DNA of 26,970 nt. Origin: Chrysochromulina tobinii (Eukaryota; Haptophyta; Prymnesiales; Chrysochromulinaceae). The translations under genes were made by a program, and so were the position numbers. The stretch covers positions 1 to 26,970 of the forward strand of contig JWZX01002392.1 of assembly GCA_001275005.1 (NCBI GenBank), read 5' to 3'. Shown here in pieces: positions 4,905-24,200 of the stretch (position 1 is the first letter of the stretch; each line of letters starts with the position of its first letter). The notes beneath the pieces were generated by a model, which worked only from the letters and a program-made list of their open reading frames with translations, did not search any database and had not been told where the DNA came from.

Positions 4905-7169
4905 TCATTTTCCGTACAGCTCCAACACAAATCCACTCCGGCCCTTCACCGCATCTCGCACCGCTTTCCCCCCTGCATCTCCCATGTTATTGGCCCGGAT
5001 GTCCAGTTTGGTCAGGACCGCGTTGACCTTCAGCGCCTCCGCGATCGCGATGGCTCCCTCTGGACCGATGTTGTTGCGGAACAAGTCCAGGGTGGTCATG
5101 ACCGCGTTGACCTTCAGCGCCTCCGCAATCGCCTTGGCACCGTCGTTGCCGATGTTGTTGTTCCAGAGGCTCAGCTTGGTCAGGACCGCGTTGACCTTCA
5201 GCGCCTCCGCGATCGCCTTGGCACCCTCTGCACCGATTCTGTTGCCGTCCAGGCGCAGGGTGGTCAGGACCGCGTTGACCTTCAGCGCCTTCGCGATCGC
5301 GATGGCTCCTTCGTCCCCGATCTTGTTGTCTCCGAGCAAGAGTATGGTCAGGACCGCGTTGACCTTCAGCGCATCTGCGATCACCTTGGCACCCTCTGTT
5401 CCGATGTTGTTGTCGTCCAGGCTCAGGGTGGTCACGACCACGTTGACCTTCAGCGCCTCCGCGATCGCAATGGCACCCTCCGCACCAATCTGGTTCAGGC
5501 CCAGTTGCAGGGTGGTCATCACCGCGTTGACCTTGAGCGCCTCCGCGATCACCTTGGCACCGTCGTCGCCGATCATGTTCCAATGCAAATCCAGGTTGGT
5601 CAGGACCGCGTTGACCTTCAGCGCCTTGGCGATCGCGATGGCACCCTCCGCACCGATCTTGTTCAGGTCCAGGTTCAGGGTGGTCAGGACCGCCATGAAC
5701 TTCAGGTCAGACGCGATCAGGATGGCGTCTGCGGGTTGGAGGTGCTGGCTCGAGAAGCCGGCCTCCGTCTGGTCGCGCGTCATGCCCGAGAGCATGATGC
5801 CCTTCTCCATGCCGATCTTGGCGAGCTTCTTGGCCGACTCAACGTCGAACCTGTTCTTGAGCAAGTTGCAGTTCTTGAGCACCGACGTGGCAGGAATGAG
5901 ATAGGCGACAAGCATGGCCGCAGGCACATGGAGCCCCCTATTGGACAAGTTGAGCTCCGTGACGCTGTCCTCGCGCAGTTGCTGTACCGGAATGCCACAA
6001 ATGACTCCCGAGCCTGCACAGGCAACGGCTGCGATCGTCAGCCTCAACGGTGGTTCTCCCTCGCCTGAGATGCAGCTGTTGAGAGCATCCTTAGCAGCAC
6101 CATGTAGCAATGGATGGCAGAGCCAGTTGCGCACCGTCCCGCATTGCAGATCCGCGGCCCGAACGGCGGCCACGTCCACCACATAGCCGTAGCCATGGAG
6201 GCGCGCAAGCCCAGGCAGCGTCCACCCTGCTACGGCCGCGTCCCCGGGCCGGCCAGCCTCGATGAGCTGCTCCACGTCAAGGTCGGTGATCTCATCCAGA
6301 CGTGTGGGTACTGGCTGCCTGTCGCGGCGGCACAGGCGCGAGCAGAGGACACGTTGCGCCAGCGCCCGCCAAGATCGAGTCAGGCCCTTGAGCGCGGCCA
6401 ACGTGGCCACGTCCACCAGGCCCAGAGCAGCCTCCATGGCGTCCGCCGAGAACGAGGCCTGCTGCATCGGCTCGGGCGGTAGCGTGGAGCTGGCCGGCTG
6501 CTGCGGCGCCTCAACATCTTCCGGTACAAATGCCGGCTCGGCGATGGACGTTGCTGCACCGGCCATCTCGATCAGGCGCTCATTCAGGCGCGCGATGAGC
6601 ACGGGCTTGGTGCCGTTGGTCGTGAGGCCAAGCGTGCGCAGCTCCCAGCGCAGCTCCACGACGCGCATCCGACTGTAACGCTTACGAAGCTCGTCAGCAC
6701 TCTGCGCGTCGAACGCGTGCGCCTCCGCGCTGCCAAAGTCACCATCCGCGCCGATGAGCGCGCATAATTCAGGAGCGCGCTTGCCGTTGAGTTGGGAGGC
6801 GATCGCGCGCTGGAGGTGCTTGAGCGCGATGGGGGCGTCGAGATAGAGGGCGTCCTCGATGAGCTGGATGAGCTGGAAGAGCGAATTCTCGTCAGAGCTC
6901 GGCCACGTGTAGTCTGGGTCGTTCAGCTTGCACACCATCTGAAGCGTCGAGGCCATGATTGTGGGCATGGGATAGATGCCATCCTCGGAGGTGGCGAGGT
7001 CCATCAGATCCTTCAAGGTGCCCATGAGTCGGGCTGCGTCGCGCGACAACGTGACCTCCTCTCCGTCTCGCGCTCGCACGCGTATTTGCTCCTCGTGTTT
7101 GGCCTTCTTCGCCGTGGGCGCCTCCTCGTGCTCCTCGGCCGACGGCTCACGCATCCCCACGCGGCGCAT
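4905..7169 (-). CDS. Skp1-like / SAP / F-box-like / LRR protein (754 aa)
   Basis: A single exon from ATG 7169 to TGA. Residues 21-24 are KKAK, a possible nuclear signal. Residues 29-135 resemble the Skp1 family (VRARDGEEVTLS, LFQLIQLIEDALYLDAPIAL, then ASQLNGK). Residues 167-200 fit a SAP motif (VVELRWELRTLGLTTNGTKP), which in known families binds DNA or chromatin. Residues 243-285 look F-box-like (LAALKGLTRSWRALAQRVL). From 493 to 744 are nine 28-residue LRRs of the ribonuclease-inhibitor/NLR type (L..L.L..N.IG.EGA.AIAEALKVNA), probably a protein-binding horseshoe. Combining Skp1-like and F-box-like parts suggests a ubiquitin-ligase adaptor fused to its own substrate receptor. That is inference: the LRRs and SAP are firm, the Skp1-like call good, the F-box call weak. 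Confidence 0.8.
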   Translation of the reverse strand: MRRVGMREPSAEEHEEAPTAKKAKHEEQIRVRARDGEEVTLSRDAARLMGTLKDLMDLATSEDGIYPMPTIMASTLQMVCKLNDPDYTWPSSDENSLFQLIQLIEDALYLDAPIALKHLQRAIASQLNGKRAPELCALIGADGDFGSAEAHAFDAQSADELRKRYSRMRVVELRWELRTLGLTTNGTKPVLIARLNERLIEMAGAATSIAEPAFVPEDVEAPQQPASSTLPPEPMQQASFSADAMEAALGLVDVATLAALKGLTRSWRALAQRVLCSRLCRRDRQPVPTRLDEITDLDVEQLIEAGRPGDAAVAGWTLPGLARLHGYGYVVDVAAVRAADLQCGTVRNWLCHPLLHGAAKDALNSCISGEGEPPLRLTIAAVACAGSGVICGIPVQQLREDSVTELNLSNRGLHVPAAMLVAYLIPATSVLKNCNLLKNRFDVESAKKLAKIGMEKGIMLSGMTRDQTEAGFSSQHLQPADAILIASDLKFMAVLTTLNLDLNKIGAEGAIAIAKALKVNAVLTNLDLHWNMIGDDGAKVIAEALKVNAVMTTLQLGLNQIGAEGAIAIAEALKVNVVVTTLSLDDNNIGTEGAKVIADALKVNAVLTILLLGDNKIGDEGAIAIAKALKVNAVLTTLRLDGNRIGAEGAKAIAEALKVNAVLTKLSLWNNNIGNDGAKAIAEALKVNAVMTTLDLFRNNIGPEGAIAIAEALKVNAVLTKLDIRANNMGDAGGKAVRDAVKGRSGFVLELYGK
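4938..5693 (-). repeat. 84-bp coding repeats of the LRR domain, nine copies
   Basis: Each LRR is one 84-bp unit. The + strand shows GACCGCGTTGACCTTCAGCG in almost every copy. The high nucleotide identity of the ALKVNA part against the variable LxL part fits recent unit duplication with change at the presumed binding face. Confidence 0.9.
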
Positions 7170-7672: not shown

Positions 7673-9864
7673 TCATCGTGCATCAAGTCGAGTATGTGGG
7701 GGGGGCGAGAGTGTAGAGCTCGCGCCTCGGGATGATAGAGGGATCGCGGCTGCCACAGCATGCAAGTGCTCACCACGGCGCTCGGTCCCTTCCCCACAGG
7801 CGAGAGGGTAGAGCTCGCGCCTCGGGATGGTCTGGTATTCGACGCACTCGTCGTCCTCGCGCAGCACGAAGAAGAGAGCGATCAGTGAATACCTCACGCC
7901 AGCGCGGATCGCCGAGACCGCATGCATCAGATCGTCCGAATGGCCGGTCACCTCGCCCTCCTCGCGCGTGAGGATCCTGTGACGACCGCCCAGGATGGCA
8001 TGCAATCGGCCACCCGTGACGGCGCCATCATCGCTCAGCGCCACGTTCAGAGTGACGCCCGAGACGTCCTGATGAAACGCAATCCACGGGCGGCCCTCAA
8101 GCGTGTATCGGCGCAAGAAGAGGTCGACATGGAAGCCGCCATGCGCCGCCTCAGTGGCGGCCGCTGTCTCCACCGGCACAACCTTACCCACGGCGTCCGC
8201 ATGCGCGTACGCCTCTTGACGCTGTAAGGCAAGCACCTCGTCGGCGAGGCGCCAGAGAGATTCGATCTCGGAACGAGATGTGAGCTCAATCAGACGCTCG
8301 ACGCTGATGCGTAGCTTTTGCTGTGCCAGGCCATCTTCCGATTCGTCAGTCCCGTCACGCGCCGTCGTGGGCATCTCGGAGTCGATCACTCGCCGAAGAG
8401 CCGCACAGCTTTCGGCGGTGAGCGCCCGCTTCCTGGTCACCACCGATCGCGCATGCTGGGCGGGCCGGCCCGGACCACGCAGCAACGCCGCTAGCGCCGT
8501 GGTGAGCGCCTCACCGCCGTCCTCGTCGACCGCATCGTCCATGAGTGCCCGTCGGAGCACCGGCTCCATTCGCTCCATCGCCGTGGCGAAGTCCGCACAG
8601 GCGGGCGGCATCGCGTCCGCCAGCACTGCCTCCCCCCTGGGTGCTCCCTTCCCCTCGGGCACTCCCCCCCCCTCGGGTGATGGGATTGCTACTAGGGATG
8701 ATGAGGTCAGCTGTGGACTCGGAGCCGAGATCTCGTCGGCGATCGATGGACGCTGTGGAATCGGGTCGTCGGCGATCGATGGACGCTGTGGAATCGGGTC
8801 GTCGGCGATCGATGGACGCGGGCTGCTCGGCTGCGCGGCACTCGCCTGGCTGAGGATCTCAGGGTGTGTACCGGTAGCTGCGTGAGACCATGTACCGGTA
8901 GCTGCGCATGCGGGCAGAGCGAATCCACGCGCCGTCGTGGGCGTGGCGTACATCCGCACCATCCCCAGGAGCGCCGTCGCCTCGGGCACCAGCTCGCCTA
9001 GAGAGTTGCCCGCGCTCCGCTCGACATTCGGCCGCGCGCCGGGCTGTACCTCACAAGGGTCGCACCCCGACGGACAATAGATCACCACACGCCTGCCTTG
9101 ATGCACCGCTCGCTGCAGCACGGGCTCGATCTGACCAACCAACCTGATGAGGGAGGCAATTAACGCGGCGGTCAGCATGCACGCAGCACGGGCTCGAGTT
9201 AGCCAACTCACCTTCGTGTGAGGAAGAGAAAAAGGACAGTGACACGCCCGTATGCAGCGTACTCCTCGAGAGACATGAAGTCGTGCTTGGCCACCTCGAT
9301 CAGGTGGGAGAGGCCGGAGCGCTCCGCCGCAGCTCGTGACCTGGCAAGGCACGCGCGATCGACGTCGATACCGATCGCGTGCGCGCCGCGCGCCGCAGCA
9401 GCCAACAGCACTCTGCCATCGCCACAGCCAACGTCAAGGAGCACATCGGAGGATGTCAGCCTGCAAAGATTCATCGCTGCGTCGACGGCTTGGTCGGGCG
9501 TGTGGACCACAGGGCAGATGATGGCGGACGAGAAGCTTGAGCGTGGCTGCTTGTACAGTTGCTGTCGCCTCGTCTGCTGCTGCCGTCTCGTCTGCCGCCG
9601 CAACTCCTCGGCACGAATCAGCCCCTGCTGTCGGTGGTGCTGTCGCTGCTGCTGCGGCCGAAGGTGCTGTGGTCGCTGCTGCTGCCGATGCTGCTGCTGT
9701 CGCACTTGCTCACGCGGACACTCCCTGAGCCTGTGCTGCTGCACGTCCTTGAGTTTGTGCAACATTGTTGTGGCGCGTGGCTCCAACCAGTTCCATGCTG
9801 TCCGGCCGCTCGTAGTGACGGTGTGTTCGACGAGCTCATCGAATTCAGACAGAGTGTTCTTCAT
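7673..9864 (-). CDS. Fused SAM methyltransferase / 2OG-Fe(II) oxygenase (two exons, 707 aa)
   Basis: Exon 1 (9864-9212) and exon 2 (9143-7673) join in phase across a 68-nt GTGAGT...CATCAG intron. Residues 47-105 are Gln/Arg-rich. Residues about 120-290 form a class I methyltransferase: motif I VLLDVGCGDGR (143-153), acidic loop GIDVD, a VLFLFL strand at the exon junction, then the terminal VLQRAVHQGRRVV. A Ser/Pro linker with 11-residue repeats (RPSIADDPIPQ) follows. The C-terminal part starts LTAESCAALRRVID and carries HxD (H575, D577), a distal His (about 625) and Arg (about 635, GVRYSL), the iron and 2-oxoglutarate ligands of prolyl-4-hydroxylase-like enzymes. Substrates are unknown. The C-terminal end is uncertain because ATCCCGAGGCGCGAGCTC occurs twice (7811-7829, 7716-7734 on +), which may mark another intron. 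The start is the only in-frame ATG. Confidence 0.78.
8733..8819 (-). repeat. 33-bp coding minisatellite in the interdomain linker
   Basis: Copies start at 8733, 8766 and 8799 (+ strand TCGTCGGCGATCGATGGACG...), the last partial. They encode RPSIADDPIPQ. Nearby, GCAGCTACCGGTACA is also duplicated at a 24-bp period (8870-8905), adding AATGT twice in frame. Confidence 0.9.
9144..9211 (-). other. Intron whose 5' part copies the start of the next exon
   Basis: The 68-nt intron opens GTGAGTTGG and closes CCCTCATCAG. The sequence GCAGCACGGGCTCGA (+ strand) occurs in the intron at 9183 and again in exon 2 at 9115, each a similar distance from a GGT. One ATTGCCTCC unit, the motif of the long intronic minisatellites at 17-23 kb, precedes the acceptor. 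This is the simplest member of that intron class. Confidence 0.8.
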
Positions 9865-15059: not shown

Positions 15060-15530
15060 CCGCAACTCAACATCACGAAGCTGATCATGAAGCCGGGCGG
15101 CCGCATTACGAAGCAGCCGTTATGAAGGCGGGCGCCGCATTACGAGTACGAAGCCGACGTTGTGAAGCCGAGCGCCGCATTACGAAGCCGGGCGCCACAT
15201 TACGAAGCCGGGCGCCACATTACGAAGCCGCCGTTATGAAGCCGGGCCGCATTACGAAGCCGCCGTTATGAAGCCGCCGTTATGAAGCCGGGCCGCATTA
15301 CGAAGCCGCCGTTATGAAGCAGGGCACCGCATTACGAAGCCGCCGTTATGAAGCCGGGCGCCGCATTACGAAGCCGCCGTTATGAAGCCGGGCGCCGCAT
15401 TATGAAGCCGGCGCTATGAAGCCGGGCGCCGCATTATGAAGCTGGGAGCATTATGTTATGAAGCGCGTTATGAAGCACTTCATAACACCGATATGAAGTA
15501 GCTTCATACCAAAAGTGTTATGAAGTACAT
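15060..15530. repeat. Subterminal repeat array (GTTATGAAGCCG / ATTACGAAGCCG)
   Basis: About 25 copies of a 12-17-bp motif alternate between GTTATGAAGCCG and CATTACGAAGCCGGGCGC, becoming GTTATGAAG and CTTCATAAC near the right end. A shorter set lies at 13540-13700 inside the left end. The asymmetry (long right, short left) and closeness to the inverted repeats fit subterminal binding sites. Confidence 0.85.
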
Positions 15531-15715: not shown

Positions 15716-18239
15716 ATGCCCGATGAACTCACTCGTGAACAAGTGATGCGGTCCATACTGGAGCGGGAGCGGTGGGATGCCCGCAAGAACGCCAAGCTCA
15801 TCGCCAAAGCTCCCTCATTCTCCAGCCTCATCGATCACAGAGGCAGCGCTGAGTATAGCGATAACTGGACGGCCCCGACGCGCTATGTTCAGGAGCACAT
15901 ACCAACGCGTCCACTCGAGGAAGTGGCTCGCTTCAACCCGCTCTCACCCACGCACCGCGCTCCGATTCTGCCCACGCTCTTCATGCCCGGCTTTCCCAAG
16001 TCGGCGACCTCGTGGTTGTATGGCTGCCTGCTCCATGCATTCAGCCCAGAAGCCGTCGGCTGCGGTCGGCATGCACATCGATGGGGCGCGGACAAGTGCC
16101 CTCACCGCTTCGCCATGACCGCACTCTATTCTACCGCTCGCGGTGAGTTTCGCGAGAAGAAGGAGCTCTTCTACTTTGGCGGCATCAGGGGGGACGAGCA
16201 GTTCAGGTTCCGGCACGATCTGATGGACCTGCATGGGCCCGACCCGACCGTGCCGCACCTGCCACCCCTCTGGCCCTGGGAACAGAGTATGGGCACGATG
16301 GTGTCGAAGCGGGAGATGCTGCATGCCATGTGTTCGAAGAGTGTCCACTCGCAGTCTTGCCTGCTCGAGCGTCGCGACAAGAACTGCACGAAGGCGACCT
16401 GCAGCGAGCCCTGCGCTCTGCCTCCCCGCTGCTCCAATTTGGGCACCGCGGCTTGTGAGGATCCGAATTGGTTCAAGTTCAGGTTCAGTTGCAAGGCGCA
16501 AGGCAGCAACAAGCCACTCCCGAGCAGTGGCTGCTACCACCCAGCTTGCGTGCGCACGGCCCCGGCGAGCCCTCAGCTCTCGGGCCAGTTCATCAAGTGC
16601 GCCTGGGATCGTGCGTTTGCGTTCGATGGGCGGGGCGCGATCACGAAGGAGGCCTATTGCGTGCACTCCTTGCTGCCGTGGGCGAAGAAGGACGAGCTGA
16701 ACGTGAGTGTCGTGGACTTCACGCCCAATTACATTTGCGACGCGGAGGCGATGAGGCGGCTGCATGAGGGAGCTGCCGGCCAGCACGGTCGGCTACGCTT
16801 CATCGTCGTGATGCGCGATCCGATCATGCGTGCCTTCTCGGAATGGGCCATGTTCTCACTCGGTTGGAATTGGGATCCGGTCAAGAACTTCTCCGCGTCG
16901 ATGGCCTTCAAGATACGAGACCTGAAGCAGTGTAACGAAACTCTCTTCAATCGGCCCGACTTGCTGCGCCACCTGCCCACCGAAGAGGTGGCCCAATACA
17001 TGCGCAGCTGCTTCCGATACGGCGCGGCCACCATGTACCCGACCACGTCGATGTACAGCGTGTGCATGCTGCATGCGCTGCGCTACTTCCGACGCGACCA
17101 GTTCTTGGTGCTTCGGTACGCGGATCTCATGCGGTGGCGGTTAGATGCTCGGCTGATGCTCGGCTGATTGCGCCTGAGGGGCTCTCCGATAGCCTCCCTC
17201 ATTAGCGCCTGAAGGTCTCTCTGATGGCCTCCCTCATTAGCGCTTGAGGGTCTCACTGATGGCCTCCCTAACTAGCGCATGAGGGTCTCACTGATGGCCT
17301 CCCTGATTAGCCATTAGCGCCTGAGGGTCTCTCTGATGGCCTCCCTCATCAGGTATGAGGATCTCATGCGAATGGATGCGAACACAATCGTCTCGACCCT
17401 CTCGAACTTCACTGGCCTTCACCTGAGCACTCGGATGACGAATGCCTCCCAGTGCCAGCCCGCGACAAAGACGTACATGAAGTCCAAGAGCGCCAACGGC
17501 TCCCTAACGACCAAGGAGCAAGGCAAGCCCACTTCACCTTTCTGAGTGCCTTCTGAGTGCCTCTCTGAGTGCCTCTCTGTCTCCCTAATTAGGCAAGCCC
17601 AACTCGTACTCGTCCATCACGCCCTATGCCGCCGAGATGCTCGAGGAAGCTTCGGCGCCTCTGGAGCGCTTCTTTGCCCCGTACAACCAACTGCTGCGGG
17701 AGATCATTGGGCCAACCTTTGGATGGGAAGCGAAGGACCATCGTAAGCGACCCCTCAGCCCGGAGCAGAGGGCGGCTGCGCTCGCCACCATCAAAAGGGA
17801 CCTCAAGAAGCAGCGGAACGGGCATGTGAGCCGACGAATCGCCGAGAAGATGAAGGTCGACGAGGTCCGCAAAAGGACGAGTCGTGGCGTCGTCACGCCT
17901 CTCAAGGAACTGCCTTGGGCAAGCTCCCCAAGCGACCGTGGGCGCGGACGGGGGCGCGGGCGGGAGGGCGGCGGTGGTGATGACAAGGAGGGCTTGCGTG
18001 CTGCGCGCAAGAAGAAGAAGCTGGCCCACAAGGCAGAGCTTCAGCTTGGCGGCGACGGCAAAGCGGATTATTCGAAGGCGCTGCGTAGGCAGAAGAAGCT
18101 CAAGCTGGGGGCCAGGGCTGCCGACTCGGCGGTGGGTGTGGCGGCGGTGGCGGCGATCACTCGGAGGCGAAGGGGCGAGGACTCAAGCGCTTCAACCGCC
18201 CGGCGGCAAAAAGGAGCTCGACCTCAAGTGCTGGCCTAG
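15716..18239 (+). CDS. Sulfotransferase with Cys-rich insert and basic C-terminal tail (three exons, 738 aa)
   Basis: Exons 15716-17115, 17353-17522 and 17593-18239 join in frame. The 5'-phosphosulfate-binding loop is GFPKSATSWLYG (about residue 92). The 3'-phosphate site is RFIVVMRDPIMRAFSEWAMF (about 360-379). A cysteine-rich insert lies between them (about 205-280). RYEDLM at the exon 1/2 junction and FFAPYNQLLREIIG in exon 3 are usual C-terminal sulfotransferase features, so it should move sulfate from PAPS to a glycan or similar acceptor. The last ~165 residues are very basic (RKKKKLAHKAE, LRRQKKLKLG) and foreign to the family; they could be a fused or mis-joined neighbour. No N-terminal signal anchor is seen, so a first exon may be missing, perhaps displaced by the element ending at 15584. 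Intron 1 is GT-AG, intron 2 GC-AG. Confidence 0.8.
17116..17352 (+). repeat. Intron 1 of the sulfotransferase: exon copy plus five ~36-bp repeats
   Basis: The intron starts GTACGCGGATCTCATGCG, a near copy of the start of exon 2 (GTATGAGGATCTCATGCG). From 17168 five units of 35-42 bp follow, each GCGCCTGAGGGTCTC...GATGGCCTCCCTCATTAG. Every unit ends in a pyrimidine tract plus YAG, so each could act as a 3' splice site. The last one, TCATCAG at 17352, keeps the frame. Confidence 0.9.
17523..17592 (+). other. GC-AG intron 2 of the sulfotransferase bounded by direct repeats
   Basis: The donor is CAAG|GCAAGC, the acceptor CTAATTAG|GCAAGC. AGGCAAGCCCA occurs at both edges. The 70-nt intron is filled by CTGAGTGCC units. 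Splicing gives EQ-GKPNSYSS in frame. Confidence 0.85.
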
Positions 18240-18441
18240 CCCTAGCGCCTAGGGATTCTTTCTTTATAGGGACAGCGTCAAATGATTGAAGCATTTCTTA
18301 GCACGAAAAAGCAAAATAGCTTTCGGTCGTTCGGTCAGCGTTCAGTCACGGTGCGAAACAGGAAATCTAAGAAAGTCAGTTTGTCTCCCGCGACCAACCG
18401 TACGCGCGCCCGGCATGGCGCCCGGTACGGTACGACGGTAC

Positions 18442-18906
18442 CTAATCGCGCCGGGCAAGGGTGCCCGGCCAGGGGTCATGTGCGGGGTCCTGAGTTGAGA
18501 GTGTCGTGCGTTCTGAGATTGGGCCGGTCTCCTGCACGGCCACGCACGCCGCCGAAGCAGAATCACGGCTCAGCACCAAGTCCGAGAATTGTTGCATGGA
18601 GGAGTTGATCTCGAGGTCGAGCTCTTCTATCGATGCGGTCAAGTCCGAGGCCGATATGGAGTGCCGCCCCTGGCTCGTGCCCCGCTCGTTTGCCTCGTCT
18701 GAGGCGAAGCGCATGAATTCAGTCCCCATAGTCTGCATCAACGCAGTCACCTCCGCGCTGATTTTTGTGCCAGGCGGGAGCTCTTTGACCAAGGTTTGTG
18801 CCACATTTGCGGCGGGGACGAGATAGTCACTGTCACGCGTTTCACTGCTGGAACTTGCTTCTGGTTTCGATGAAGGCCTTGCCATGGGGTCTGTGAACCT
18901 CTGCAT
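18442..18906 (-). CDS. NF-YB-like histone-fold protein (154 aa)
   Basis: From ATG 18906 (ATG 18885 is also possible) a Ser-rich leader is followed by the CBF/NF-YB/archaeal-histone pattern: YLVPAANVAQTLVKELPPGT (helix 1), KISAEVTALMQTMGTEFMRF (helix 2), ASDEANE, then ISASDLTASIEELDLE (loop 2 and helix 3). Such proteins pair with an NF-YC-type partner to bind DNA (CCAAT boxes in NF-Y itself), or act in Dr1/NC2 or polymerase epsilon complexes. The HSISASDL segment is shifted from the classic TINGDDL, so the exact subfamily is open. The tail after helix 3 is unstructured. It is convergent with the sulfotransferase, 202 bp apart. Confidence 0.8.
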   Translation of the reverse strand: MQRFTDPMARPSSKPEASSSSETRDSDYLVPAANVAQTLVKELPPGTKISAEVTALMQTMGTEFMRFASDEANERGTSQGRHSISASDLTASIEELDLEINSSMQQFSDLVLSRDSASAACVAVQETGPISERTTLSTQDPAHDPWPGTLARRD

Positions 18907-19641
18907 AGTACGTGTAGGGTTGCAGGTTGAGGAGAGAAGACGTGTCCCTTTGCCGCTGCACTGGATTGGCACAAGATGAGCTGTGGCAGGAGATCGATCA
19001 AGCGCGATGGAGCGGGTCAAGGAGGCGGGTACGCCGAACGTGGTTGGCCATGGGTCAGGCTCGGGAACGCGCGAGATCGATGCAGCAAGCAGTCACCTAA
19101 AGAGCCCTTGCCGCCACGACCAGACCTCGAGGCGCGGAGCCGCGCGGTGCGGGAAAAAGCTCCTCGAAGCTCCGATAGCAAAACTCGGGGTTTTTTCGAC
19201 GGGCCTACAGCTCGGGTAGTTTTAATCTGATACGAGCGATGGAGCGAACAATATTCTATTTTCGCTCGTATCAGATTTTCACGCTCGACGGGCGGCGGGC
19301 CTATGCAGCCTATGACTCCTAATGTGGATTACCTACATTGTAGAGCCTATTCGTAGACGCACAGCCCCACAGAGCACACAGTGTTCGACCTCGGACCTGT
19401 TCGGCACCATCGGAAACATACTGCAAACACAGAGTTCAGAGGGTTTAGTTTTATCGAAAATTTAGTAGTTTTTCGCCAGCTGATAGACAGAAGTCCGTCG
19501 CTTCACGCTTGCCGCACGCACCCATCATCTGCCTCGAGTCTTTGCACCCTGCAGCGGCATGACGTACACGATTATCGACGTGTCGCGCAGATGCGTGTGC
19601 GTGTGCACATCGCGTGGCTCGCAATTCGGGCGCTCGTCAAG
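18907..19641. other. Intergenic region with a strong hairpin
   Basis: It lies between two minus-strand genes, so it should hold the NF-YB-like promoter side (left) in part and the 3' region of the O-methyltransferase (right). A weak open frame on + (19381-19695) has no start ATG or recognisable domain. The inverted repeat at 19224-19277 is the only clear structure. Confidence 0.5.
19224..19277. repeat. Perfect 16-bp inverted repeat with 22-nt loop
   Basis: AATCTGATACGAGCGA (19224-19239) is exactly matched by TCGCTCGTATCAGATT (19262-19277). The AT-rich loop reads ...AATATTCTATTT. GGTTTTTT lies just upstream. Confidence 0.9.
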
Positions 19642-21111
19642 CTAGCCGATCCAAGACAATTTGGACGCCAGGCTTGTCTTGCCCTTATTTGGTAGCTCGT
19701 CGAGCGTTGTCGTGAGCGCACCCTCGCCCTTGGTACACATGTAGAGCTGTGCAGGGGGCTGGTACTGCTGCAGCTTGTGCTTGGGTGTCACGGGAGAGCT
19801 CCACGCAGCTCCAGGCGGTCCGAACGGCAAGGCGTTCGAAGGGTTCAAGCTGCCAGGCACCCGAACTGCTCCACTCCGCAAGCCAAGCACCGCGCCGATC
19901 AGTGGCAGTCAACGGCAATCGATGGCAATCGATGGCAATCAACAGCAATCAGCGGCAGTCACCTGTTCCATCTCCCAAGCAAAGCGGTCGATTCCTCACC
20001 GCCCCCCCCGGCTTCCGCCAGTAGGCGCCCCGCACGACCTCGTTTCGCTTGTGCGGCACGAGTACGATCGGCGCTGTGATGCGCTGCTCGGCGCGGTACC
20101 TGTCGACCGCCTCGCGCAATCAGAGGTCATCAACGCAATCAGTGGTCATCAGCGATGCGCTGCTCGGCGCGGTACCTGTCGACCGCCTCGCGGCAGGTAG
20201 TCCAATCTGTGAAGTCGTCGATGATGACGAACCCGCCTGCCAAGAGCGGCGGGTAGAGATGCAATCAGTGGCCATCAGATGTGATCCACGCAATCAGACG
20301 TCATCAGCGGTCCGCACCTGGCGAGAGCCGCGGGTAGAGCACGGTGAGCGCCTCGTAGGTGGACCAATACGCATCGCCGTCGAGTCGAATCGTTAAGAAG
20401 GTGAGCGAAGGCTCTTCGCGCGCCAACCGCGGCAACGACTCGTTGAAATAGCCGGGCACCCAGCGTAGCGTCGGGCCCAGCTTCATCATCGCAGCATCCT
20501 CACGCACCTGAGAATGGGGAGACGGGTCGTCATTCGCACTCACAGCCCATCACTGGCACTCAAAGGTCATCAGTGGCACTCAAAGGTCGTCAGTGACAAT
20601 CAGGCCCCGGTCTCATCATCGCAGCGCCCTCACGCACCCTTCTTAGGGAGTTGTTGTTCAGAATGGAGGTTGTGTGCGCGGTCCGGTCCATTTCCTTGAC
20701 GGCATGCACGTGGTCTCGGCCGCTCCCGTAGGCTGTCTGCTCTGGGATTCCGGAGAAGCTGTCGGCGAGGTACACCAGGCGCGGAGGCGTCGCCACTCCA
20801 GTACGCTCCGTCTCAAGAGCCGCGAGCACCTCGAGCGTCTTGGCGGCCATGAATGACATGCCGCCACGCCACACGCCCGTCTCGATGAAATGGCCTGGGA
20901 TGCCGTCATTGATCGCCGTCGCGAGGACCGCGACGGTGTGGTCCAGTCGCCTCTGCCCAGCCATCGTCAGCGCGTTCGCACCAGGCGGGTACTTGGATCC
21001 GTCGACGTCGGCCTTGGCCGGATACTTGACGTATTGGCGGTTCAGAAGCGTGTCACGATAATGCTGCAGGTATTCGAGCAAAAGGAAGTGCACCGTGGCG
21101 CCGAGGACCAT
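19642..21111 (-). CDS. TylF/macrocin-type O-methyltransferase (five exons, 361 aa)
   Basis: Exons 21111-20638, 20507-20318, 20236-20176, 20099-19963 and 19865-19642 join with consistent phase (1086 nt). Key family patterns read straight through the junctions: GHFIETGVWRGGMSFMAA (SAM-binding), RLVYLADSFSGIP, LTFLTIRLDGDAYWSTYEAL, LYPRLSPG-GFVIIDDF, CREAVDRYRAEQRI and GAYWRKPG. This is the TylF/MycE family, which methylates sugar or polyketide hydroxyls using SAM and usually a divalent metal held by the Asp residues. The acceptor is unknown. The last ~75 residues, after YWRK, are not part of the family and depend on intron 4, whose junction is the least certain. The only in-frame ATG near the start is 21111; an upstream exon is possible. 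It sits 168 bp downstream of the PPR-SMR stop. Confidence 0.82.
20078..20191 (-). repeat. Intron 3 formed between two identical 38-bp copies
   Basis: Bases 20078-20115 and 20154-20191 are identical (38/38, period 76). The splice junction GACAG|GTACC lies at the same place in both copies. The 76-nt intron (20175-20100) runs from one copy to the other. The 38 bases between the copies are four TGATGACC/TGATTGC units. Confidence 0.95.
20508..20637 (-). repeat. Intron 1 of the O-methyltransferase: exon copy plus 10-bp repeats
   Basis: The intron begins GTGCGTGAGGGCGCTGCGAT and exon 2 begins GTGCGTGAGGATGCTGCGAT, with ATGA next in both. Between them are ACTGACGACCTTTGAGTGCC-type units. The acceptor is CATTCTCAG. 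Confidence 0.9.
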
Positions 21112-21279
21112 TTCGCGTCCCGAAGAAAACGCGTCCACGCCGAGGGGTACATGTACAGCCGCGAGGCGCTGTCACGGGCGCAAATCTGAAATTGCTGTAT
21201 TTGAAGGGCAGTCTAATTAAGTTTCGTTAAGCGTCGTCGTGGCCTTACGTTAACTGCATAGGGTCTCTCTCTCGAATCA

Positions 21280-24200
21280 TCAATGGCGGTGCTGCCTATT
21301 CCGTCCCGCCTGCGGACTTGCCTGTGCCTGCGCCCTAGTGACCTGTCCCTGCGGCTTTGCGCGCGCCGTGTTGAGCGACCTCTCGGGCGCGGTGCCGCAC
21401 GCCGTGTTGAGCGACTGCTCGCGCTCGAGAGCCTCAGCCTCGAGGCGCCTCTGCTCGGCCGCGTGGCTCGCGCGCAGCTCGGCCGCGTCAGATCGCATCT
21501 GGCAAGAGAGGAGCCAGAAGATGCGATCAGATGCAATGCGATGAGCTCAGATGCACGCATGCACTCCCGCTGCGTGGCAATCCGAGGCAATCCGAGGCAA
21601 TCCGAGGCAATCCGAGGCGATCCGAGGCAATCATAGGCAATTATAGGCAATCCGTGGCAATCAGTGGCAATCAGAGGCAATCAGAGGCAATCAGTGGCAA
21701 TCCGATGCAATCTCACCTGGCAGATTCTGCGGAGCGCCTCAACATCAAGGAAGAAGGCGCCGATCGTGCGTGAGCTGTACCGGGCGCCGCCCTCCAGCCC
21801 GTGGGCGAGCGTCGAGATGGGCACACCCAGCTCGAGGAGGAACGTCTCGATGTGGTTACGCAAGTCGCCCTGATGAAGGCGGCCATCCGAGGTGATCAGA
21901 GAGGCGATCAGAGAGGTCATCGCACCAGAGAGGTCATCAGGGAGGCCATCAGGGAGGTCATCAGGGAGGTCATCAGGGAGGTCATCAGGGAGGTCATCAG
22001 GGAGGTCATCAGGGAGGTCATCAAGGAGGCCATCGGAGAGGCAATCGCACCTGCCCGTAGACTGGACGCGACTTGCCGTAGCCTGTGATGATGCTCAAGG
22101 TGTGAACATACTCCACAGAGCCACGCCAGTCGTTACGTAGCAGCCGCTCGGGCAACGCCTCTTCGACCCACCAGCGCACCTGATGAGGGCGGCAAACAAA
22201 GACGCAATCATACGCAATCAGGCAACGCCTCTTCAACGCATACGCGCACCGCCACTTCGGCCGCCGCCGATGAGAAGTTCTGCAATCATACGCAATCATA
22301 CGCAATCAGCGCACCGCCACTTCGGCCGCCGCCGATGAGAAGTTATGCAGATCGAGGGAGCCCGCGAGGCCCAACGGGCGCTTCGTTGGGCGCCAATATT
22401 CAAACGGGACGTACACTTGGCGCGAAAGCGCACGACGCCAAAACATCGCTGTGAGCTCCCGCTGCCCTCGTACCTGATGAGGGGCGCAATCGAGGGAGGC
22501 GCTACGGGAGGCGCTCAATGGCACTCCGTGGCAATCCGGTGGCACTCAGTGGCACTCCGTGGCAACCCGTGGCAGAGTGGCAACCCGTGGCAACCCGTGG
22601 CACTCAGCAGCCACCAGTGGCCAGCAGCGCCGCACCGCGTCTAAGATGGCATTGAAGACGACGAGATTGGAACGGTTGAGTGACGAATCCGACTCAAAAG
22701 CTGTGAATAGGTCGAGAGCGCGTCCTGTGAACGCGGGGCCACCCGAGGCACACGCCTGGAGAGCGGCACCGAAGAGCACCTGCGCCAAAGGGGCAACCAG
22801 AGGTCATCAGGGAGGTCATCAGGGAGGTCATCAGGGAGGTCATCAGACTCAAATCCGGCGCCACTCGGCGCACCTCATTCGGCTTCACGCCGCGCGCAAG
22901 CATCTGATCCCATAGCTTCAACGCCTCCTCCACCTGGCCGCTCTTATGCGCGGCCGTGATGGCGGCGGAGAAGCAGTACTGCAAGTCCTTCTGCTTGAGG
23001 ACACGGCCCGAGGCAAGGGCGGCGGTGGCCTCAGCTGCAGCGGACTCAGCTGCAGCGGCGGCGGCGGTCTTGTCGGTGAGGGCTGGGTCGATGACGTCGA
23101 GTGAGGCTGCCTTGTCGGCCAAAATCTCGTGCCCGCAGCGCTCTTCCAACTCCCTGATGAGGCAGGCAATTAGAGGCCATTAGAGGCAATTAGAGGTCAT
23201 CAGAGGTCATCAGGACCTCCACAGCTCCCTGATGAGCGAGGCAATCATGCACCTCATGTACTGCTCGACCATTGAGTACCGTCCGAGCTTCTCTGCAGCC
23301 GAGAGCGCATTCGAGTCGAGGAATGGGTCCCACAGCCACCGGTGTGACAACCCGTGCGATCGCACCCGACGTAACGCCTCAAACACGCGAAGCAGCAACT
23401 CGTACCTGAAGGGGGAGCGGCGCCGTAGTGGGCACTTGCATGCAAGGCACGACCGACGTAACAACTCAACACGCGAAGCAGCAACTCGTACCGGTAGAGC
23501 ACGAGTAGGTTGAGGAAGGTGTCGTCAGTGGCAATCAGTGGTCATCAGTGGTCCTCAGCGATCGCATACCGGTAGAGCACGCCGGCCGAGCTCCCGAGCG
23601 CCGTGCCGGGCGGAGTGCCGTGCGCCGTGCCGAGCGGACTGCCGGCCGCCACGCCGCCGCCGCCCGCCGCGCTGCCCATCGTCGCCTGGCACGCAGCCAC
23701 GGCTTCATTCCACGGGAACTGGCTGAGCTCATCCTCGAGATCGTTCCGAGATGGAGCCGAGATCTTGTGACGCCCTTTCGGCCGTGGGCGTACTTCGCTG
23801 CTGTCGCTCTCGCCGCCGCCGCCGCCGCCGCTGCCGCCTTCGCCGCCTCTGCCGCCCTCGCCGCCCTCCGCCGCCGATAGCTGATCCAGCTGGTCAATCA
23901 GCGATTCAAGCGACGGGAGCGCATCGTGGACCAGCGCCACCGCCTTCTCGTTGAACTTGGCGCGCTCCGCCGTGCCGGCCGCCACGTGCCGGCTTCTCTC
24001 ACACGCCAGGATCGCCGACCGGTACGTGCGCAGATTCGGGCCGACGCCGTCGGCGAGCATGCTGCTCCACAGTTGATCGATCCGCTCGTACTTGGGCCCT
24101 GGTGACCTCTGGGTCTGAGCCACCATGCCCGTGAACAGGATCGTATACGTGAACACGTTCGGCTTCACCTTTGCCTCTCGCATGCTCGCGAGCAGCTCGT

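Follow-up and report, generated by a model that had tools for sequence, protein, structure and literature searches.

The origin of spliceosomal introns is a long-standing question for which few datable events are available. One described route is that of introners, numerous introns derived from related sequence inserted in exons, found mostly in aquatic lineages and with a bias towards genes. In the parts of the survey PMC9860276 drawn on here, one of their splice sites can be co-opted from the target duplication. In tandem genomic duplication, as the relevant excerpts of a review (PMC3443670) and of a case in potato (PMC4974935) have it, an exon segment is doubled and the splice sites come from the copies. 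Neointrons of Daphnia, attributed to staggered double-strand breaks in the portion of PMC4202315 used here, carry an exon-edge repeat at the opposite intron end as well as internal repeats. Repeats have also been described at the borders of several intron classes, in the same three arrangements relative to the borders as reported below (PMC11782384, in the passages drawn on). The introns that we describe resemble each of these systems in the traits just named. They were first noted in a stretch of 26,970 bp from the haptophyte Chrysochromulina tobinii (contig JWZX01002392.1; hereafter the window), where a sulfotransferase, an O-methyltransferase and a PPR-SMR gene stand next to each other. Based on sequence comparison, we consider it probable that they are spliceosomal introns gained recently and repeatedly, through insertion of a short introner-like filler (F) into coding exons with duplication of exon sequence (D), giving a D-F-D arrangement.

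Exon copies at intron junctions and a shared 3' splice cassette

The window (C1250 in our numbering) belongs to a genome of 53.15 Mb in 2,253 contigs. It was analysed together with an evenly spaced sample, the opening 10 kb of each 110th contig (20 stretches, L011-L030; GC content 62-67%), which gave 227 kb in all. Other loci comprised 12 stretches picked for their cassettes and smaller loci reached via other searches (L001-L010, L031-L034), and patterns were counted over the whole genome. Genes were predicted with a two-strand hidden-Markov gene finder written for this analysis and trained on the 20 stretches and the window. It has no knowledge of repeats, learns the first and last six intron bases, and has GY..AG borders imposed on it. 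Over the 227 kb it returned 122 genes and 105 introns; the 85 predicted introns of at least 45 bp, with their flanks, formed the blind test set.

Three layouts of exon copy were found. In the downstream type, the start of the intron copies the start of the next exon (sulfotransferase introns 1 and 2, O-methyltransferase intron 1). In the upstream type, the end of the intron copies the end of the previous exon (O-methyltransferase intron 2 and, weakly, intron 4). Meanwhile, in O-methyltransferase intron 3, the junction lies inside a repeat. The blind junction test compared sequences position by position outward from the junction, with a cut-off score of 8 and partners shuffled in 1000 permutations. 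Copies reaching this score were present in 14 of the 85 introns (eight downstream-type and six upstream-type), against a permutation mean of 0.17 and a maximum of 3; without the window, the figures were 8 of 67 and 0.14. For the two copy types, pseudo-introns taken out of exons would give 0.27 and 0.37. All six upstream-type introns of this test end in an exon-derived CAG, not in the cassette described below. A preliminary description of this DNA had noted that, in at least nine introns, the sequence at one edge recurs at the other edge or inside; this observation is confirmed and extends beyond the window, and duplication of exon sequence at the junction is supported by both the blind test and the cassette-anchored test that follows.

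The cassette is a 20-bp sequence, TGATTGCNTCCCTCATCAGG, that combines a branch point and an acceptor. Counted over the whole genome with at most one mismatch, it occurs in 1,181 forward and 1,243 reverse copies (about 2,400), while the reversed pattern, used as a control, occurs in none on either strand. The 227 kb hold 24 matches with up to three mismatches. Seventeen of these sit exactly at predicted intron 3' ends, a position partly dependent on the gene finder having learned the last six intron bases; three lie elsewhere in introns in sense orientation, two within 14 nt of an intron end, and two between genes. None is antisense in a gene, and the reversed control again gave none. In unrelated genes, 18 of the 85 sampled introns end in CATCAG. 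Among 257 billion bases of prokaryote sequence, the exact cassette was found in three stretches, two from Gluconobacter, which we take as chance matches, and a viral collection gave no match to either the cassette or the repeat units of the introns. The earlier statement that no mobile sequence beyond short units is shared between the introns is refuted by this cassette.

Since the cassette fixes the acceptor blind to any copies, it served as anchor for a second test, in which the start of the downstream exon was sought upstream at a G[TC] donor. The 113 cassettes used came from all loci, including the 12 stretches picked for cassettes only and loci first found via units. Copies scoring at least 11 accompanied 34 of the 113, with 1.7 expected, and copies scoring at least 20 accompanied 18, with 0.18 expected. 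By source, the 34 comprise 21 of 73 from the picked stretches, 8 of 25 from the evenly spaced stretches and the window, and 5 of 15 from other loci. In eight of them, another cassette end, CATCAG, stands right before the upstream copy, giving stacked units of exon plus insert (L044 twice, L017 twice, L038, L039, L040 and L043), the case at L036 is probably spurious, and the sulfotransferase introns of the window and of its paralogue on contig C1499 form one homologous pair. Copy length at scores of at least 9 was 9-40 nt (38 cases, 40 being the maximum of the test). Exon copy, filler and cassette recur in tandem as one block of about 60-70 bp at L044 (about 819-960) and L017 (about 7990-8105), which gives the appearance of insertions stacked at a single site.

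Among the 33 anchored cases that score at least 12, the two copies are at least 95% identical in 14 and at least 90% identical in 26. The filler between them has a median length of 56 bp; in the 26 cases with copies at least 90% identical it measures 21-168 bp, and 21-74 bp in 21 of these. It starts within five bases of a unit in 18 of the 33, the cassette at its end being the choice of anchor. Where the copies are at least 95% identical, 13 of the 14 inserts contain one or more units beyond the cassette's own (counted by eye, in inserts selected for the cassette), and O-methyltransferase intron 3, the perfect repeat, has four units and no cassette. The presence of units in the least-diverged inserts indicates that filler was there at or near birth.

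The units follow the branch-point-like motif TGA[TG][TG][AG]C[CGA], which in the 227 kb reaches 25.8/kb on the sense strand of introns and 0.38-0.56/kb elsewhere, intron antisense included. Confinement to introns in sense orientation, on which the preliminary description had staked its reading, holds for 217 of the 226 matches that have a neighbour within 13 bp. None of these paired units is intron-antisense or exon-sense, two are intergenic, and the seven in exon antisense, at three places, are perhaps gene-model errors. The commonest distance between units is 10 bp (99 gaps), followed by 11 bp (22) and 12 bp (17), with arrays of period 35 and 36, in agreement with the 10-, 12- and ~36-bp units reported earlier. 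Seven of the 45 array introns open with GTGATT or GTGATG, that is, with a unit read as donor, and the branch-like A of the 45 lies at a median of 23 nt from the 3' end. Among 47 introns with at least two motifs, 17 find their best match in the same gene, where 5000 permutations give 5.5 and at most 16, suggesting that units spread or were homogenised locally; some of these pairs are adjacent tandem copies. The proposed change in minisatellite length is also borne out, as sulfotransferase intron 1 differs in length between the window (237 bp) and the paralogue (328 bp).

These results bear on a purely local origin, as first proposed, in which tandem exon duplication would be followed by minisatellite growth without incoming sequence, and the units would be alike because of a branch-point optimum. 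O-methyltransferase intron 3, with AG/GT (the slash marking the junction) in a perfect 39-bp duplicate, has the textbook layout of a tandem duplication, and the changing unit numbers and the excess of same-gene matches fit as well. However, young introns already contain units, and some 2,400 near-identical cassettes exceed, in our judgement, what a branch point and an acceptor consensus would need. We therefore regard a purely local origin as distinctly unlikely. What stands of the earlier interpretation is the junction duplication, the change of the minisatellites and the confinement of the units; the absence of shared sequence does not. Its "AGGT-bearing segment" was also too narrow, since, among the anchored cases, all but O-methyltransferase intron 3 take one splice site from an end of the duplicate and the other from the filler.

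Introns of the window and their presence in relatives

All thirteen introns reported for the three genes, and a further one at 9144-9211, could be placed by coordinate (Table 1), and the four edge words quoted for them are all present. The gene finder reproduces the hand-placed borders at 8 of the 13 introns, as well as at 9144-9211. It shifts the acceptor of O-methyltransferase intron 4, and moves the donors of sulfotransferase intron 1 and O-methyltransferase intron 3 into or past the exon copy. As it also splits PPR introns 2 and 5 in two, the count is 13 or 15 depending on the model. The edge repeat, claimed for at least nine introns, was confirmed in 9 to 10 of 14; PPR introns 3, 4, 6 and 7 showed no edge copy at score 7 in the junction-anchored comparison. 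In PPR intron 5, NFSSAAAEVA occurs twice in the gene-finder protein (22250-22345), its copies separated by a possible mini-intron of 35 bp. This duplicate could give rise to an exon duplication via alternative splicing.

Table 1. Introns of the window and the copies, fillers and cassettes within them
Feature	Positions	Strand	Description
Sulfotransferase intron 1	17116..17352	+	237 bp, GT-AG, downstream-type; interior 35-bp array, cassette at end
Intron-side copy	17116..17133	+	18-nt copy of exon-2 start, 16/18 identical; own-species open reading frame P0128 runs into copy
Exon-side copy	17353..17370	+	encodes YEDLM, like relatives
3' splice cassette	17334..17352	+	19 nt, 1 mismatch to TGATTGCNTCCCTCATCAG
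Sulfotransferase intron 2	17523..17592	+	70 bp, GC-AG; opening 9 nt copy exon-3 start (9/9)
O-methyltransferase intron 1	20508..20637	-	130 bp, downstream-type; no counterpart in paralogue C1189
Intron copy, O-methyltransferase intron 1	20613..20637	-	copy (23/25) of exon start 20483-20507
O-methyltransferase intron 2	20237..20317	-	81 bp, upstream-type; final 22 nt are a 19/22 copy of upstream exon end 20318-20339
O-methyltransferase intron 3	20100..20175	-	76 bp, junction within perfect 39-bp direct repeat
Direct repeat, upstream copy	20154..20192	-	39 bp, O-methyltransferase intron 3
Filler	20117..20153	-	37 bp of branch-point-like units, O-methyltransferase intron 3
Direct repeat, downstream copy	20078..20116	-	39 bp, O-methyltransferase intron 3
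O-methyltransferase intron 4	19866..19962	-	97 bp, weak upstream-type copy 17/23; gene finder's border gives better frame
PPR intron 1	23406..23569	-	by eye, junction and downstream exon copied inside, around 23459-23506
PPR intron 2	23154..23252	-	inner copy of own 3' end CTCATCAGGGAG and only ~7 exon bases
PPR intron 3	22780..22873	-	12-bp array
PPR intron 4	22474..22635	-	10-bp array, 3' end CCCCTCATCAG
PPR intron 5	22180..22314	-	30-bp in-frame exon copy (NFSSAAAEVA); downstream-type copy 26/32 at second junction
PPR intron 6	21870..22050	-	12/36-bp array
PPR intron 7	21499..21716	-	10-bp array
Further intron	9144..9211	-	68 bp, downstream-type, copy 23/29, ends in cassette (1 mismatch)

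Intron removal restores the reading frames. The sulfotransferase and PPR frames run to stops, the O-methyltransferase frame is restored also, and the spliced proteins match Sulfotransfer_1 and PPR repeats in Pfam. The restored proteins have relatives, and proteins of the same species extend into these intron starts, in clusters of 122 (P0128) and 47 (P0003) sequences. Together with the confinement and orientation of the units, this argues against these segments being coding or assembly minisatellites misread as introns, a reading to which we give almost no credence, even though the assembly resembles a metagenome bin (no contig below 10 kb among those listed).

Comparison with paralogues in the same genome provided two cases of intron presence and absence. 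The O-methyltransferase paralogue on contig C1189 has introns 2 and 3, and its intron-1 site is empty; in a more distant paralogue (C1193, 57% identical), the coding sequence continues across the positions of introns 1 and 2. On C1499, the sulfotransferase paralogue is identical to the window copy at 700 of 744 aligned spliced positions (94%). Introns 1 and 2 occur in both genes but differ in their number of units. The C1499 gene has in addition a third intron of 72 bp, without counterpart in the window copy; its first 29 nt copy the next exon (28/29), and a 43-bp filler that ends in the cassette makes up the rest.

Relatives gave a similar picture. Of the O-methyltransferase relatives in the protein collection, four (P0005, P0006, P0007 and P0009) are without introns 1-3; P0002 is without introns 1 and 3, and P0001, also without intron 1, stops at the site of intron 2. 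The intron-1 insertion of the sulfotransferase is missing from P0121-P0124, P0126 and P0129 among the relatives aligned, and no copy was seen at the intron-2 site in relatives, where the stretch is poorly aligned. A Prymnesium parvum protein is also a relative of the sulfotransferase (59%); as an annotated protein, it is possibly spliced and thus uninformative on intron absence. L016 holds a cellulase gene (GH45; PF02015 on relatives) for which the genome gave no match on another contig; four of its intron sites are read through by the related proteins P0152 and P0153. P0001 and P0002 appear to continue into intron sequence, which suggests a genomic origin; other read-through relatives are possibly transcripts. 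In both the sulfotransferase and the O-methyltransferase, the residues shared with relatives are encoded by the exon copy and not by the intron copy. Judged by these alignments, the introns are gains.

The same comparisons could in principle reflect old introns that were precisely lost at the empty sites when the flanking copies recombined, an event that direct repeats of 20-40 bp would allow. Several relatives as well as paralogues within the genome lack the introns, however, and the copies are at least 95% identical in 14 of the 33 anchored cases, which makes such loss highly improbable as a general explanation. Separately, the O-methyltransferase paralogues show a step in identity. The window at 20010-20508 matches L031 at 97% over 499 bp, introns 2 and 3 included, and at 82% over 343 bp upstream of intron 1, which suggests gene conversion, and protein P0008 resembles a mosaic of both paralogues.

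Predicted introns are unevenly distributed over the sample. There are none in 79 of the 122 predicted genes, three genes hold 9, 12 and 14, and the 45 array introns are confined to 7 of the 21 stretches. Chaperonin genes (PF00118), tried as a yardstick, gave 21 matches of which 8 were near full length in one frame, hence without introns; some of these may be organellar or bacterial. Among the 85 test introns, 66 have GT and 19 GC donors within the imposed GY..AG borders, and this share of GC donors is unusually high. Genes for U1 and U2 RNA were found in the genome, and we take the U1 5' end and the branch-pairing stretch of U2 to be canonical; these genes, the intron borders and the branch-like A fit U2-type spliceosomal introns. 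Other repeats of the window include a 267-bp tandem repeat with 5.6 copies (114-1670), an 84-bp tandem repeat that by eye possibly encodes leucine-rich repeats (5001-5705), and a GAAGCC-rich array of irregular period (15087-15476).

A proposed mechanism of insertion with exon duplication

The D-F-D arrangement suggests a simple series of steps. An insertion would duplicate 9-40 bp of exon at the insertion point, and the filler placed between the duplicates would consist of one to few units of the form (C)TGATTGCNN or (C)TGATGACCN, often closing with the cassette TGATTGCNTCCCTCATCAG/G. Such an insertion would be silent after splicing in three situations: D opens with GY and F closes with AG (downstream type); F opens with GY and D closes with AG (upstream type); or AG/GY lies within D. 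Under this rule, the duplicated exon supplies the splice site missing from the filler, and the filler supplies the branch points. From the anatomy of the introns, we infer that this rule of silence is the cause of the three layouts. Later, the arrays would gain and lose units, and, of the two copies of D, the one in the intron would decay while the one in the exon is conserved. The fillers may have been copied from existing introns, and the common F speaks for the intron pool as their source.

Several observations weigh against this mechanism or limit its reach. The introns are predictions from DNA sequence, and the read-through relatives are mostly metagenome proteins, some possibly derived from transcripts. 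A detectable copy is kept in only 14 of 85 blind and 34 of 113 cassette introns, and the mechanism may or may not extend to the remainder. Introns with at least three units carry copies about as often (8 of 45) as those with fewer (6 of 40), which indicates that the copy is not tied to long arrays. An unanchored search found copies in 13 and 12 of the 85 introns at score 12, where local exon sequence alone gives 4.85%; this enrichment is overstated because exons hold local repeats themselves. Under a strict complexity filter, one that discards true cases such as O-methyltransferase intron 1, the unanchored excess over local exons is significant at score 12 (p 0.002 and 0.01) and not at score 14 (p 0.16 each), a modest enrichment. 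As to the filler, a whole-genome search with that of O-methyltransferase intron 3 matched only itself and its own paralogue, leaving its donor untraced, and its similarity is 45 to the neighbouring intron and 43 to unrelated introns. The filler of the third intron on C1499 resembles an intron of L027 (42) more than intron 2 of its own gene (39). The L027 gene is transporter-like, possibly UNC93-like, and its only match elsewhere is at 28%. A terminal inverted match CTGAT..ATCAG of at least 5 nt is found in 9 of 32 fillers against 6% with the first 15 nt shuffled; terminal inverted repeats are thus weak. Finally, the variable length of D, 9-40 bp, does not fit a simple transposase.

The last two points bear on whether the filler is an ordinary introner, that is, a non-autonomous DNA transposon like a miniature inverted-repeat transposable element (MITE), with target-site duplications long by chance. 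The shared terminal sequence, the flanking direct repeats, the weak inverted match, the genic bias and the probable marine habitat of the alga are what such an element would show, and co-option of a splice site from the duplication has already been described, as far as the excerpts of PMC9860276 go. The filler ends of O-methyltransferase introns 2 and 3, however, lack ATCAG, the interior is a variable minisatellite, and only 2 of the 226 paired units are intergenic. In addition, the duplications of 9-40 bp contrast with 3-9 bp for earlier families and with examples of 4 and 8 bp in the sections of PMC9860276 used here. A MITE-like element is unlikely in our view.

The variable duplicate length and the D-F-D arrangement would fit staggered breaks with fill-in, and double-strand-break repair capturing arbitrary filler has been proposed for Daphnia. 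In the present case, however, the fillers are not arbitrary, being of the same unit family and cassette, and the exon-intron repeats of Daphnia measure 4-12 bp in the consulted part of PMC4202315. Capture of arbitrary sequence during repair is therefore an unlikely account of these introns.

For insertion with exon duplication, our preferred reading, the chemistry may have consisted of staggered nicks or breaks with fill-in and a templated filler, of a transposase, or of a reverse transcriptase. The variable D speaks for widely staggered nicks or breaks with fill-in over a standard transposase. Tandem duplications in plants are said to arise from paired nicks (2016), and human introns from tandem arrays were reportedly described in 2007. 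The scarcity of units between genes could result from genic targeting, from RNA templates, or from the loss of intergenic copies. Tentatively, and with less than even confidence, we propose that this genome maintains an ongoing source of new introns, distinct from both a classical transposon and simple slippage. Branch-point units together with a 20-bp 3' splice site would form a portable cassette, written into transcribed exons while widely staggered nicks or breaks are repaired, perhaps on the template of existing introns or intron RNA, with the 9-40 bp exon duplicate completing the splice signals. Thousands of introns would have arisen in this way, in a class that the published introner screen discards for low complexity.

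These findings have implications for the study of intron birth. About 0.28 Mb gave 26 cases with both target copies at least 90% identical, two empty sites within the genome and a simple rule of silence. The long target duplications suggest an insertion chemistry that is coupled to repair or unfamiliar.

Comparison with described modes of intron gain

Introns of this kind are not mentioned in the portions seen of the genome papers of Chrysochromulina tobin (PMC4580454), Phaeocystis globosa (PMC11347835), Diacronema lutheri (PMC8379373) and Pelagomonas calceolata (PMC9481584). A literature search over titles and abstract openings, covering few subscription journals, found no description of them either. 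The variant of introner-type gain combined with exon duplication is new.

In tandem genomic duplication, two direct copies of the exon segment are expected, and these are found in the introns that keep a copy. An AG/GY within the duplicate that supplies both splice sites is found in O-methyltransferase intron 3, which fits the scheme exactly; in the other anchored cases, one site lies in the filler. In the scheme of the consulted part of PMC3443670, the duplicate contains AGGT and itself becomes the intron; the introns described here instead have, between the copies, a distinct filler that carries branch points and in many cases the acceptor. The Daphnia neointrons differ in their shorter repeats and, as far as the excerpts of PMC4202315 show, no shared filler family is mentioned for them. 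Meanwhile, the border repeats of PMC11782384 measure 4-30 bp (mean 11.4) in 213 introns of several classes, and the passages drawn on mention no shared insert.

Introners are among the nearest known systems. At least four non-paralogous introns have similar sequence, as shown by the cassette and by the CATCAG ends in unrelated genes. Similarity at the intron ends is found at the 3' end; the 5' end of the downstream type is an exon copy, hence there is no shared 5' end. The body is a minisatellite of 10-12 bp tandem units and thus of low complexity, whereas the survey PMC9860276, in the sections on its procedure used here, removed low-complexity families by hand. Its pipeline also requires similarity at both ends, while that of the downstream type reaches the 3' and not the 5' splice boundary. 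Target-site duplications, which the survey gives for 49 of 130 scorable introner families, are frequent in introners but not obligatory; the exon duplications found here are 9-40 bp long and variable, and come without clear inverted repeats. Collectively, these introns work like introners but are not members of the class under that pipeline, and, given the two filters, such a class would probably have been missed there. Screens for introners may accordingly overlook a productive class of intron gain if they discard low-complexity introns or require both ends to be similar.

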